Of a DNA stretch of 41,973 nt, positions 4,809-41,973 are shown piece by piece; position 1 is the first letter of the stretch; each line of letters opens with the position of its first letter. The DNA comes from a virus. The stretch spans positions 1-41,973 of IMG/VR virus record IMGVR_UViG_3300020220_003380, one strand, 5' to 3'. The translations under genes were made by a program, and so were the position numbers. A model generated the notes under the pieces. The model was not told the origin of the DNA. It ran no database searches and worked only from the letters and a program-made list of their open reading frames with translations.

Positions 4809-4817
4809 CATAAATAC
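4809..4817 (+). promoter_or_regulatory. Late-type promoter motif CATAAATAC before the tail-fibre operon
   Basis: CATAAATAC lies 19 nt before the ATG of the first large structural gene, in a 57-nt intergenic stretch that also holds AGGA at 4827-4830 as ribosome binding site. Structural genes in T4-like phages are expressed late from TATAAATA-type boxes, so both sequence and position fit. Confidence 0.65.
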
Positions 4818-37264: not shown

Positions 37265-37699
37265 ATGGACGCATTAAAACAAGCTCTTAAAATAGCATTT
37301 GCCAGTGAGTATGCTTTTTACCTCAAAGCACACTATTTTCATTGGAATGTGGAAGGGCCTAATTTTCCACAATATCACGAATTGTTTGCGAAAATTTATG
37401 AAGAAGTGTACAGCAGCATTGACAAATTTGCTGAAGAAATAAGAGCGACTGGTTCATATACTCCAGGTTCTTTTGAGCGTTTTAGTGTACTCAGTTTGGT
37501 TGATGACGAAACTAATATTCTGCCTGCGGAGTCCATGCTACTAGAATTATTACAAGACAGCGACAAGATGCAAGAAATGTTTCGAATCGTGTTTCAAGCT
37601 GCTGAAGAATTAGGACAACATGGCCTAAGTGATTTTCTAGCAAGCAGACAAGATGCCCATGCAAAACATTCATGGATGTTGAGATCTACTCTTAAATAA
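37265..37699 (+). CDS. Dps-family mini-ferritin
   Basis: 144 residues. The ferroxidase residues of Dps are present at the correct spacings: H26 (HYFHWNVEGPNF), H38, D53 and E57 (SSIDKFAEEIRATG), corresponding to H51, H63, D78 and E82 of E. coli Dps. The Lys-rich N-terminal tail that E. coli Dps uses to bind DNA is absent. The dodecamer would oxidise Fe(II) with peroxide and store iron. With the SOD and the Fe-S carrier it makes a set of iron and oxidative stress functions. A GATAAATAC motif lies just upstream, suggesting late expression. Confidence 0.85.
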   Translation: MDALKQALKIAFASEYAFYLKAHYFHWNVEGPNFPQYHELFAKIYEEVYSSIDKFAEEIRATGSYTPGSFERFSVLSLVDDETNILPAESMLLELLQDSDKMQEMFRIVFQAAEELGQHGLSDFLASRQDAHAKHSWMLRSTLK

Positions 37700-37706
37700 G
37701 CGCACA

Positions 37707-38315
37707 ATGCTTCTAGTCTATATTCACGGTGCCAGTGCAACTAGTGAAAGTTTCAACTACATTCGACAACAAATTAAAGGCAAAGAACTGCTCATAAATT
37801 ATGACAGCAGGAACGGCTTCGAAGTCAACTTAGAAAACATGAAAAATTTGTTATCGGCACAAAAAAACATGTTTTTTATTTGTCATAGTCTTGGCGGAAT
37901 CTACGCATTACATCTAGCAGCCGCATTTGAAAATCAGGTGTTGGGTGCAGTAACACTAAGTACACCATACGGTGGCGCGGAAGTGGCGGATGTTGCCAAG
38001 TACTTTTTACCTTACAGTCGATTACTGAAAGATATAGGTCCCACGTCGTGGGCTATGAAACTTTCTAGATCAATACGTATTAACAAACCGTGGACAAATA
38101 TAGTAACTATTCAAGGATCAGCACCTTGGATTCCTGCTCCTAACGACGGAGTAGTCACTATATCGAGTCAGCGTAAACGCGAAGACATTATGAATTTGGT
38201 TGAACTAGAATGTAACCATTACGAAGTTGTTTTAAATAATACAGCAGTAGGAATTATCAAAGATTGTATTAATCAACCCTCAAAATATTTTTATGGAAAT
38301 AGTCGAACACTGTAA
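37707..38315 (+). CDS. Alpha/beta hydrolase (lipase/esterase-like)
   Basis: 202 residues. The oxyanion-loop motif HGAS (7-10) and nucleophile elbow CHSLGG (S61) are present, together with plausible acid D147 (APNDGVV) and H171 (ECNHYEV). The short length, no signal peptide and a TPYGGAEVADV segment fit a cytoplasmic serine esterase, lipase or depolymerase-like protein. It overlaps the aminotransferase gene by 23 nt, so the two probably act together. Substrate unknown; a role in surface-glycan or lipid metabolism is a guess. Confidence 0.75.
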   Translation: MLLVYIHGASATSESFNYIRQQIKGKELLINYDSRNGFEVNLENMKNLLSAQKNMFFICHSLGGIYALHLAAAFENQVLGAVTLSTPYGGAEVADVAKYFLPYSRLLKDIGPTSWAMKLSRSIRINKPWTNIVTIQGSAPWIPAPNDGVVTISSQRKREDIMNLVELECNHYEVVLNNTAVGIIKDCINQPSKYFYGNSRTL

Positions 38316-39447
38316 CGAAGAAGCGACCCGCTTTGTTACTAAAACCTATGATTATTGGATCGAAACAGAATCAAAAAAATACTTAGACCTAATGTGCGGA
38401 CACAGTGCATACATTTGGGGCTACAGCGATTCCAATTTAATTGCTGCTGTTGAATCTCAATTGCGCGATGTTCAGTTTTTACGCGGTAGATCAAGTGAAA
38501 AAAATCATCTAGTAGAAAAAGTTAACAAACGACTTTTGCAAACAAGTGGCATGAATGCAGTTTTGTATGCTGTCAGTGGCAGTGATGGTGTTGAAGCTGG
38601 ACTAGAAATTGCAGACCAATATTGGAAAAATGTTGATCCAAGAAAAAATAAGACAATAAGCTTCTATCCTGGTTATCATGGTACAACTTACCGTGCAAGA
38701 ATGCTACGCGGAGAAAAGTCGTCAGACTACAATATAATTTTACCAGCGCCTGCAAATGATCAAGTTCAAGATGAAATTAATTTACTTGGTGTAATTGAAA
38801 AGATTACCAATACAGATATTTCTATAGGAACTATTGTCATGGAATCTATTCCGTGGATAAACGGTTTACGACCATGGACTAATAATTGGTGGCAAAAAAT
38901 TAGGACGTTGTGTGACCAAAAAGATATATTATTGATAGTAGATGATGTGTGGGGCGGATTTGGCAAAGTAGGACCTGCGTTTAGTTATCAAAAATACAAC
39001 GTAAAACCTGATATCAACATAATGGGAAAAAGTATCACAGGCGGCATGGTTCCACTTAGTTGTGCTTTGATGAATGACAGAGTTTATTCAAATGTAAAAA
39101 ATTCAATCATGTACGGTCATACCTGGCAACCGCAAATGCTTGGTATAGCTTTAGCCAATTGTGTGTTAGAACAATTTAATTCTGAATTGGTCGAAAATAT
39201 TAATATTCAACATGAAATTTTATTTGATAAATTAAAAGATTACGGTGTAACTGGTTTTCGAGGAACCGGGTTGGCTAAAGAGCTTTTAGTAAACAAATCA
39301 TTGGCAAAACAAGATTACGAATATGCTGGATTGTGTACTCCGTATTTTCTTCCAAGTTCAATTATATTGGTCACTCCAATAACAGCAGATTTGGTATATT
39401 GGGAAGAGCTAGAACAAAGACTTAAATTATTATTACAAACTAAATGA
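38293..39447 (+). CDS. Class III PLP-dependent aminotransferase
   Basis: 384 residues, shorter than usual (420-450). PLP-binding features: SGSDGVEAG (95-103), YPGYHGTTYRARM (125-137), cofactor Asp D217 in IVDDVWGGFGKVG and the catalytic Lys K246 in NIMGKSITGGMVPL. The family includes glutamate-1-semialdehyde aminomutase, BioA and omega-aminotransferases; the present branch is not assigned. In a phage, it may make an amino sugar or modified lipid precursor, which would fit NeuD-like, FkbM and glycosyltransferase genes elsewhere in the window. Inferred only. Confidence 0.85.
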   Translation: MEIVEHCNEEATRFVTKTYDYWIETESKKYLDLMCGHSAYIWGYSDSNLIAAVESQLRDVQFLRGRSSEKNHLVEKVNKRLLQTSGMNAVLYAVSGSDGVEAGLEIADQYWKNVDPRKNKTISFYPGYHGTTYRARMLRGEKSSDYNIILPAPANDQVQDEINLLGVIEKITNTDISIGTIVMESIPWINGLRPWTNNWWQKIRTLCDQKDILLIVDDVWGGFGKVGPAFSYQKYNVKPDINIMGKSITGGMVPLSCALMNDRVYSNVKNSIMYGHTWQPQMLGIALANCVLEQFNSELVENINIQHEILFDKLKDYGVTGFRGTGLAKELLVNKSLAKQDYEYAGLCTPYFLPSSIILVTPITADLVYWEELEQRLKLLLQTK

Positions 39448-39760: not shown

Positions 39761-40021
39761 ATGAGTTCAAGAATGTTCAGTTCAGAACAAAAAGCCAAAC
39801 TTACACAATTGATAAATGAAGGCATGACTATCATGCAAGAAGTTGAGGATCTCACAGAGGGACTCAACGACACCGTTAAAGCCATTGCCGAAGAATTGGA
39901 AGTTAAACCTGGTGTGCTAAAGAAAGCGATTCGCATTGCACACAAAAGCAAGCTGGGCGAAACAAACGCAGAAAATGAACAACTCAACACCATTCTGCAA
40001 ACTGTAGGTAAAACACTATGA
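39761..40021 (+). CDS. DsbA-like double-strand DNA-binding protein
   Basis: 86 residues with AGGAG 5 nt upstream. Helical throughout: KAKLTQLINEGMTIMQEVED, LTEGLNDTVKAIAEELEVKP, GVLKKAIRIAHKSKLGE. It matches a family annotated in cyanophages as double-strand DNA-binding protein (counterpart of T4 DsbA, which modulates late transcription). The KPGVLKKAIRIAHK helix is the conserved part. The name rests on pattern recognition, not on a search. It is the first gene after a sigma70-like promoter. Confidence 0.55.
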   Translation: MSSRMFSSEQKAKLTQLINEGMTIMQEVEDLTEGLNDTVKAIAEELEVKPGVLKKAIRIAHKSKLGETNAENEQLNTILQTVGKTL

Positions 40022-40374
40022 CTTACTTTGGGTATCATTTGATGCTTGATTGTTCTGGCTGCAACGATGGTATAAAAAGTCGTGCAAATATACACGCATT
40101 TGTTACCAATTTAGTCAAGAGCATTGATATGACAGCACACGGAGATCCGGTGATAGAGTATCTTTTACCCGGTGATCCCAAACAAGGCTACAGTTTGATG
40201 CAACTTATTACCACAAGTACCATCACTGGTCATTTTATTGAAACAAACCATTCTGCATACTTTGACGTCTTTAGTTGTAAAGAATTTGATTCTGATATTG
40301 TCGTTCGCTGTGTGAAAGAATATTTTGGAGCAAAAAATATTAGAATCAATTACTTAACCAGGCATGCAGACTAA
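40018..40374 (+). CDS. S-adenosylmethionine decarboxylase (SpeD)-like protein without processing serine
   Basis: 118 residues. The core resembles prokaryotic SpeD: FGYHLMLDCSGC at the start, then MQLITTSTITGHFIETNHSA and YFDVFSCKEFD, where the C87 of VFSC corresponds to the catalytic Cys and H72 to the active-site His. The Ser that becomes the pyruvoyl group in SpeD (in ESHLSIHTW) is replaced by G71 (TITGHF), and the segment after it is about 4 residues shorter. The protein therefore cannot self-process as SpeD does. Alternative or regulatory role possible. It is coupled to both neighbours. Confidence 0.7.
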   Translation: MTYFGYHLMLDCSGCNDGIKSRANIHAFVTNLVKSIDMTAHGDPVIEYLLPGDPKQGYSLMQLITTSTITGHFIETNHSAYFDVFSCKEFDSDIVVRCVKEYFGAKNIRINYLTRHAD

Positions 40375-40664
40375 TGAATCACATATTATATGAAATCTCA
40401 CAATGGATCCGGCAGGATTATGCGAGTCATAGATTGCGTTTTTGTCTTGAGGTCCTGGCTTGGGCTCTATCTATTGGTTGTGCTATCGCTATGGCCCTCA
40501 CCGTGCCTAATCCACCCCTTCTTGTCCTGTATCCAGTCTGGATTACAGGTTGTGCTATATACGCTGGGTGTGCTTATAGTCGTGGTTCCTTTGGTATGTT
40601 GGCCAATTATCTACTACTGGTCACAATTGACACAGTAGGACTAGCAAGAATGCTTGCACAATAA
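40374..40664 (+). CDS. Small membrane protein conserved in T4-like phages
   Basis: 96 residues. Three hydrophobic segments (about 26-44, LEVLAWALSIGCAIAMALTV; 48-66, PLLVLYPVWITGCAIYAGCA; 72-88, MLANYLLLVTIDTVGLA). The ALTVPNPPLLVLYPVW block is shared by many uncultured phages. A transporter or small channel role cannot be assigned. The start shares a base with the upstream stop codon (TAATG). Its stop overlaps AATAAATATC, a late-type word. A second frame over the same region has no ribosome binding site and is a shadow. Confidence 0.7.
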   Translation: MNHILYEISQWIRQDYASHRLRFCLEVLAWALSIGCAIAMALTVPNPPLLVLYPVWITGCAIYAGCAYSRGSFGMLANYLLLVTIDTVGLARMLAQ

Positions 40665-40704
40665 ATATCATGGTCTCGCTGGACCAAAAACGGCATGTAG
40701 AGTA

Positions 40705-40724
40705 GTGTGAGCTAGAAGTCACAC
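40705..40724 (+). promoter_or_regulatory. RNA hairpin next to the ribosome binding site of the DNA polymerase gene
   Basis: GTGTGA (40705-40710) pairs with TCACAC (40719-40724) around the 8-nt loop GCTAGAAG. The hairpin is followed at once by AAGGAG (40725-40730) and, 5 nt later, ATG 40736. In T4 the gp43 polymerase represses its own translation by binding a hairpin with a 5-bp stem and an 8-nt loop next to the gene 43 ribosome binding site. Size, loop length and position match; the loop sequence is different from T4. Confidence 0.65.
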
Positions 40725-40735
40725 AAGGAGAATAG

Positions 40736-41973
40736 ATGAGTTATATAGATGCTCTGTTTGACAGAGACAAAGATCGCATTCGTGTGGTAGAACGTGTGAA
40801 TGGCGAACGACAGTACCGTGAATATCCCGCTGAATATGTGTTCTACTATGATGATCCCAAGGGCAAGTATCGTACCATATATCACACTGCGGTGTCAAGA
40901 TTCAGCACTCGCAACAGCAAAGAATATCATAAAGAACTTAAAATCAACTCAGGAAAAATTTTGTGGGAAAGTGACATCAATCCCATATTTCGCTGTTTAG
41001 AGACAAACTATCTTGGCGCCAATTCGCCTAAATTACAAACGGTTTTTTTCGACATTGAGGTAGACTTTGACCCGGCGAGAGGTTTCTCAAAACCTGAAGA
41101 TCCGTTCAATCCAATTACAGCAATTAGCGTGTATCTAGACTGGATGGACAAACTAGTTACGTTGGTTGTGCCGCCCAAGAGTTATTCGTGGGCTACGGCA
41201 CAAGAAATATGCAACCAATACGACAACTGTTTTTTATTTGAACGAGAAGAAGATTTACTTAATACATTTCTTGATATCATCGAAGATGCAGACATCTTGA
41301 GTGGGTGGAACTCAGAGGGCTTCGATATTCCTTACATGGTCATGCGTACAACCAAGGTGTTGGCCAAGGACGATACCCGCAGATTCTGCCTATGGAATCA
41401 ACTACCCAAACAACGAACATTTGAACGTTTTGGTGCAGAGAATCTCACATTTGATTTAATTGGCCGAGTGCATATGGACTATATGCAACTGTATCGCAAA
41501 TACACATATGAAGAGCGACACAGTTATAGCTTGGATGCCATTGGTGAATACGAACTAGATGAGCGTAAGACACAATACGAAGGCACACTGGATCAGCTAT
41601 ACAACAAAGACTTTCCCAAGTTCATTGACTACAACCGACAAGATACCATGCTTGTGGCCAATCTAGATCGCAAATTGCGATTCCTAGATCTAGCCAATGA
41701 ACTTGCACATGATAACACCGTGCTGTTACAAACTACCATGGGTGCTGTGGCAGTGACTGAGCAGGCAATTATCAACGAAGCACATCAACGAGGTATGGTT
41801 GTACCTGATAGGAAAGGAAGAGATGACCAAGGAGATACGCAAGCAGCAGGTGCCTATGTTGCTTTCCCCAAAAAAGGCATGCACGACTGGATCGGAGCGA
41901 TCGACATCAACAGTCTCTACCCGTCAGCAATCCGCGCTCTTAACATGGCACAAGAGTCGATCGTCGGTCAGCT
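40736..41973 (+). CDS. Family B replicative DNA polymerase (gp43-like), 3' end outside window
   Basis: The open frame continues to the right edge (412 codons). Exonuclease motifs: Exo I FFDIEVDF (D106, E108), Exo II GWNSEGFDIPY (N192, D197) and Exo III YNRQDTMLV (Y299, D303). Motif A of the polymerase, DINSLYPS (D390), lies just before the edge. The opening MSYIDALFDRDKDRIRVVER is typical of gp43 in T4-like aquatic phages. Proofreading residues are intact. It would work with the clamp, clamp loader (gp44 in this window) and helicase. Translation is probably autoregulated through the upstream hairpin. Confidence 0.95.
   Translation, partial: MSYIDALFDRDKDRIRVVERVNGERQYREYPAEYVFYYDDPKGKYRTIYHTAVSRFSTRNSKEYHKELKINSGKILWESDINPIFRCLETNYLGANSPKLQTVFFDIEVDFDPARGFSKPEDPFNPITAISVYLDWMDKLVTLVVPPKSYSWATAQEICNQYDNCFLFEREEDLLNTFLDIIEDADILSGWNSEGFDIPYMVMRTTKVLAKDDTRRFCLWNQLPKQRTFERFGAENLTFDLIGRVHMDYMQLYRKYTYEERHSYSLDAIGEYELDERKTQYEGTLDQLYNKDFPKFIDYNRQDTMLVANLDRKLRFLDLANELAHDNTVLLQTTMGAVAVTEQAIINEAHQRGMVVPDRKGRDDQGDTQAAGAYVAFPKKGMHDWIGAIDINSLYPSAIRALNMAQESIVGQ

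Follow-up and report, generated by a model that had tools for sequence, protein, structure and literature searches.

A predicted pseudoknotted leader RNA conserved before the gp43-like DNA polymerase gene of large uncultured phages

Does a large uncultured phage control its replicative polymerase through an RNA structure at the start of the polymerase message, and is that structure the hairpin operator of T4 gene 43? The question arises at the end of a viral sequence of 41,973 nucleotides (IMG/VR record IMGVR_UViG_3300020220_003380; hereafter the window, meaning the whole stretch of DNA analysed), where a gp43-like family-B DNA polymerase gene, identified by homology, starts at 40736 on the plus strand and is open at the window end (40736-41971). 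Its N-terminal 412 amino acids match phrog_262 (E = 4e-103), RB69 gp43 (1clq; E = 6e-34) and the Pfam domains DNA_pol_B_exo1 and DNA_pol_B, and within this N-terminal portion the homology to RB69 gp43 spans the exonuclease and the start of the palm. Upstream genes in the window encode an S-adenosylmethionine decarboxylase (40018-40374), a class-III aminotransferase (38293-39447) and a ferritin-like, Dps-type protein (37265-37699). A sequence-only reading of the window had placed a T4-like autoregulatory hairpin, of T4 geometry but with a new loop, directly before the polymerase gene.

Results

Hairpin and leader layout in the window

The 6-bp stem and 8-nt loop described by the sequence-only reading are present as GUGUGA-GCUAGAAG-UCACAC at 40705-40724 (5′ arm 40705-40710, loop 40711-40718, 3′ arm 40719-40724), with AAGGAG and then the gp43 ATG directly 3′. 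Taken singly, this hairpin is not beyond chance. The plus strand of the window holds 20 perfect hairpins with a 6-bp stem and 8-nt loop, 4 of which have a Shine-Dalgarno-like string within 6 nt after them, and folding is unremarkable, with z-scores of +0.40 (40690-40760) and −1.59 (40671-40735, the whole leader). The significance of the hairpin comes solely from comparison with relatives, which yielded 115 distinct homologous elements with covarying stems and by which it is predicted to be the second stem (P2) of a compound leader RNA of about 55 nt.

This leader consists, in order, of a P1 stem, a linker AUGUAGA, P2 with an 8-nt loop GCYNNAAR, and the ribosome site. All its parts in the window are on the plus strand. 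The covarying P1 stem is formed by the arms GCUG (40678-40681) and CGGC (40691-40694); the conserved, single-stranded linker AUGUAG follows at 40695-40700, and among 64 sequences its positions A25, G27 and A29 are invariant and G30 nearly so. The two P2 arms are likewise supported by stem covariation, and the Shine-Dalgarno sequence AAGGAG (40725-40730), assigned from its sequence and from the spacing between P2 and the start codon, abuts P2.

Conservation and covariation of the stems

Relatives were fetched as 80 viral contigs with polymerases 75-100% identical to that of the window, about 45 of which carry the same layout within 75 nt 5′ of the polymerase; pattern scans independent of the polymerase enlarged the set to 115 distinct elements. 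In 64 diverse copies, P1 and P2 are paired in 95.6% of cells and show 161 double-sided changes, compared with 51 in shuffles and at most 19 in slid controls, and in 22 copies of the window subclass the 17 pairs of four helices are paired in 99.5% of cells. These paired percentages are partly built in because the element finder demanded P1, at least three P2 pairs and the loop motif, and the stems were therefore retested on copies chosen by linker and loop alone. Both stems were present in 49 of 55 such distinct matches and P2 only in one; the remaining five, without either stem, are chance matches outside the polymerase locus. Covariation of the stem in homologous upstream regions, which the sequence-only reading had named as the check on its hairpin, was found, and the lack of stem conservation that it had named as the opposing outcome was not.

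Two predicted pseudoknots

The first three nucleotides of the P2 loop are complementary to an RGY just upstream of P2 in all 115 copies. The pairing is RGY:GCY in 114 copies and AGU:ACU in one: AG(Y) goes with GCU (once ACU) in 86 copies, GG(Y) goes with GCC in 29, and no copy mixes the two; along the polymerase tree this pair (A-U/G-C) switches on both sides at least seven times. The same complementarity recurs among held-out, more distant relatives found later with another polymerase as bait, in 29/29 parsed copies (three more sequences were unparseable), and other P2 loop positions are complementary in 4-7 of the 29. Covariation thus makes P2 part of an H-type pseudoknot whose first loop mostly measures 1-4 nt, which lacks a second loop and whose third loop is NNAAR. 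In the window, this second pseudoknot would join AGU (40701-40703) to the loop nucleotides GCU (40711-40713) through the pairs A40701-U40713, G40702-C40712 and U40703-G40711, and its third loop would be AGAAG (40714-40718), in line with the loop conservation of the family.

In the subclass that includes the window, P1 appears to repeat this design. Here the P1 loop has nine bases, the first four of which (GACN) pair with NGUC just 5′ of P1; the pairing is perfect in 27 of 30 copies gathered without forcing it, and three variants of the outer pair are present, namely UGUC/GACA (U-A), AGUC/GACU (A-U) and GGUC/GACC (G-C). The third loop ends in AAR in 30/30 of these unforced copies. In the window, the putative strands are GGUC (40672-40675) and GACC (40682-40685, inside the P1 loop), followed by a third loop AAAAA (40686-40690; NNAAR in the family). 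A plain fold of the window sequence favours the NGUC:GACN helix, and the two helices of this first pseudoknot may coexist or alternate. The simplest reading of the window leader is a tandem of two pseudoknots of one design with a common 5-nt third loop, NNAAR. Elsewhere, in P1 loops of the type seen in L004, L009, L109, L125 and L173, which are part of a class with seven-nucleotide loops, P1 is lengthened to five pairs and closes a pentaloop of the YNUAA type.

Link to the polymerase gene

In the genomes scanned, many large uncultured phages carry one copy each of the leader, and it stands solely before the polymerase gene. A polymerase lies within about 870 nt downstream, mostly immediately 3′, in 193 of 201 matches of scans blind to the polymerase, a total in which some loci are counted twice through matching two patterns. 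The other eight comprise two cut by a contig end and six without a full element. Each contig of 320-374 kb has a single strong match, adjoining its sole matching polymerase gene, and all other model matches in these contigs score below 19 bits; a multi-gene regulon was rejected on this single strong copy per genome. A narrow range of 9-13 nt separates the end of P2 from the start codon in 103 of 114 scored copies, with 6-15 nt overall, and the ribosome site lies inside P2 in four copies.

An open reading frame intervenes between element and polymerase in about 28 matches, and it is mostly small and Cys-rich. Such frames, seen in L012, L016, L087, L118, L122, L130, L160 and others, encode 47-57 amino acids (MSNR.WFEEPGEPIAPC.DC... 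or MSNRNYFEDED...CxxC), and some are coupled to the polymerase by an ATGA overlap. In L187, L191, L193, L200, L205 and L222, a frame of about 200 codons seems to lie between the element and a polymerase of about 60% identity.

Distribution and loss

The element is missing from 27 of 140 polymerases in a tree of their N-terminal parts, with at least 11 state changes, and because losses are this frequent it must be dispensable. For several element-less polymerases, the upstream frame runs up to or into the polymerase start, which leaves no room for a leader, and in L050 P1 and the linker are kept and P2 is lost. A model of the element gave no match at the polymerase of Phosso, Vibrio 2.275.O, PA5oct, Atu_ph07, SCTP-2, PHA46, XacN1 or T4, and the element was also absent from the polymerase upstream regions of seven cultured phages read by eye. 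Distant blastn searches for conservation in cultured relatives returned nothing useful, and three contigs from metagenome-assembled genomes gave no model match.

With Rfam 15 covariance models, neither the window leader nor the element in ten relatives drew a relevant match at E values up to 10, and a known riboswitch or other Rfam motif was rejected accordingly. An early likeness of CGUUCA...GUAGAG to the glutamine-II/downstream-peptide RNA failed to hold. No described element of this kind was found in the openly accessible literature. We note a sub-threshold Rfam match in L004 (2073-2181, minus strand) to the Rhizobiales sRNA Atu_At1, at 43 bits against a cut-off of 60.

A promoter-like motif before the leader

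A survey of upstream boxes in the 115 elements found TAAATA, TATAAT or TAAGTA 5-25 nt upstream of P1 in 100, compared with a mean of 12 in shuffles; the commonest placement of TAAATA ends 9 nt before the first C. In the window, the corresponding motif, resembling a T4 late promoter, is ATAAATA at 40661-40667 on the plus strand. ATAAATA occurs 12 times in the window (for example at 4810, 12767, 15036, 31292, 37239 and 40661), a number close to chance expectation, with a strongly one-sided distribution of 11 sites on the plus strand. Seven sites lie 26-41 nt before a start codon and the polymerase site lies at 75 nt, the extra distance being the RNA element. These placements suggest that this region, with the polymerase gene, is transcribed late in the manner of T4, and by analogy with T4 late promoters the RNA probably starts at or near the first pseudoknot strand, expected at 40672-40675. 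Members of the GCC subtype (L048, L203, L210, L214 and relatives) have an extra inverted repeat, for example CUGUU...AACAG, between the promoter-like box and P1.

Comparison with the T4 operators

The element and the T4/RB69 gene 43 operator have in common a hairpin with an 8-nt loop and a position where translation of a homologous family-B polymerase starts. The resemblance claimed by the sequence-only reading goes no further. The operator in the T4 record, AGCCU-AAUAACUC-GGGCU-AUAAACUAAGGA, has a 5-bp stem and a ribosome site several nucleotides away rather than adjoining, so 'same geometry' does not hold; the loop does differ as claimed (GCUAGAAG in the window, AAUAACUC in T4). In the present family most stems have 3-7 bp, the GCYNNAAR loop forms a predicted pseudoknot with upstream nucleotides, a second structured domain lies 5′ and the ribosome site abuts. 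The T4 operator is a hairpin with no evidence for a pseudoknot, recognised through the loop bases -UAAC- (PMC3014915). A simple hairpin loop with -UAAC- (T4, RB69) or -UAAA- (RB49) was not found here; UAAA is present by sequence in some family copies, with no sign of being the RB49-type motif. We therefore rejected homology to the T4 operator on stem, loop and spacing, with topology differing too. What stands of the T4-like reading is a conserved RNA structure at the gp43 ribosome-binding site, tied to gp43 alone; it is not the T4 hairpin with a new loop. The further suggestion that loop specificity had co-evolved with the polymerase is unsupported: GCYNNAAR is near-constant in the family, and the L232 and L013 elements precede polymerases of another clade, a disagreement between element and polymerase clades that weakens the case for strict protein-RNA co-evolution.

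The nearest architectural precedent is the leader pseudoknot of T4/RB69 gene 32, with which the element shares an H-type pseudoknot, pointed to here by covariation, that lies 5′ of the ribosome site in a replication gene's leader. Gene 32, unlike the gene studied here, encodes a single-stranded DNA-binding protein (SSB), and in its leader the knot must be followed by a long single-stranded tract rich in UUAAA (PMC535899), a tract that the present leader lacks. The present leader belongs to a polymerase gene, not to an SSB gene with a UUAAA-repeat tract before its start codon; its knot abuts the ribosome site, and one subclass has two predicted tandem knots. The leader may work like the gene 43 or gene 32 operators, and membership in either family is not indicated.

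Discussion

These comparisons suggest that the phage uses its own mRNA to control the amount of polymerase, by means other than the T4 hairpin. The structure covaries, its place relative to the ribosome site is fixed, its link to the polymerase gene is exclusive and single-copy, and a promoter-like motif places it at the probable 5′ end of the message. Leaders exclusive to one gene and located at its ribosome site are typical of autogenous control. We consider it slightly better than an even bet that gp43 binds its own leader and blocks initiation. In such autogenous repression the leader would act on translation: the 5′ leader of the polymerase transcript would fold compactly, in the window as two tandem H-type pseudoknots, with its last stem abutting the Shine-Dalgarno sequence; gp43 in excess over primer-template DNA would be the ligand that binds the folded leader and stabilises the fold; and the bound leader would block 30S loading, such that gp43 limits its own synthesis. 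The gp43 proteins of T4 and RB69 and the gp32 of T4 repress their own mRNAs via leader structures, gp32 via a pseudoknot (PMC3014915, PMC535899), and autoregulation is lacking in some of the T4-related gp43 proteins (PMC3014915).

Other roles can be weighed on the same evidence. A constitutive 5′ element, shielding the message from decay or setting basal ribosome loading with no ligand, would suit the probable transcript 5′ end just after the promoter-like motif, stems that vary freely while the shape is kept, and frequent loss where the upstream frame reaches or overlaps the polymerase start. However, sequence conservation in the linker AUGUAGA and the NNAAR loops exceeds the needs of a plain stabiliser, and a generic stabiliser would be expected on other genes too, not confined to one; we regard this role as unlikely. 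Confinement to one strong copy per genome also speaks against binding by another phage or host protein (SSB, RegA-like or late-switch) that would time polymerase synthesis, since one would expect a general regulator to serve further genes as well. T4 gp32 does recognise a leader pseudoknot (PMC535899), and RegA represses T4 replication genes, but seven large relatives gave no RegA family homologue and the gp32 search in large relatives one match alone, sub-threshold. A RegA- or gp32-type regulator was rejected for want of a clear homologue in the large relatives, and the wider reading of another bound protein also seems unlikely.

Riboswitches of the preQ1-I and SAM-II types are compact H-type pseudoknots whose third loop is A-rich and which lie beside the ribosome site, a design that the leader resembles and that, with its conserved linker and loop bases, would fit a metabolite riboswitch, for example for a nucleotide. 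Unlike those riboswitches, the leader has no Rfam match and no metabolic gene association, never having been found before a metabolic gene or outside the polymerase locus, and we judge a riboswitch improbable. As for a functionless chance hairpin, the weak single-sequence statistics would allow it, but covariation in 115 distinct copies and in the held-out relatives rules it out for practical purposes.

Beyond autogenous repression by gp43, we tentatively raise, at rather less than even odds, a broader proposal: the leader might represent a new class of RNA regulator, widespread in large phages, in which tandem H-type pseudoknots with common NNAAR loops would be the recognition units and the replicative polymerase or a nucleotide ligand would sense supply and set polymerase translation.

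To our knowledge, only T4 and its close relatives provide a detailed picture of how a replicative polymerase controls its own synthesis. A structurally unrelated pseudoknotted leader on the same gene suggests either several origins of polymerase autocontrol or its rebuilding around a new RNA. More than 100 natural variants with compensatory changes make the question of autocontrol testable in vitro, and the element, being single-copy, can mark polymerase loci in contigs of jumbo phages.
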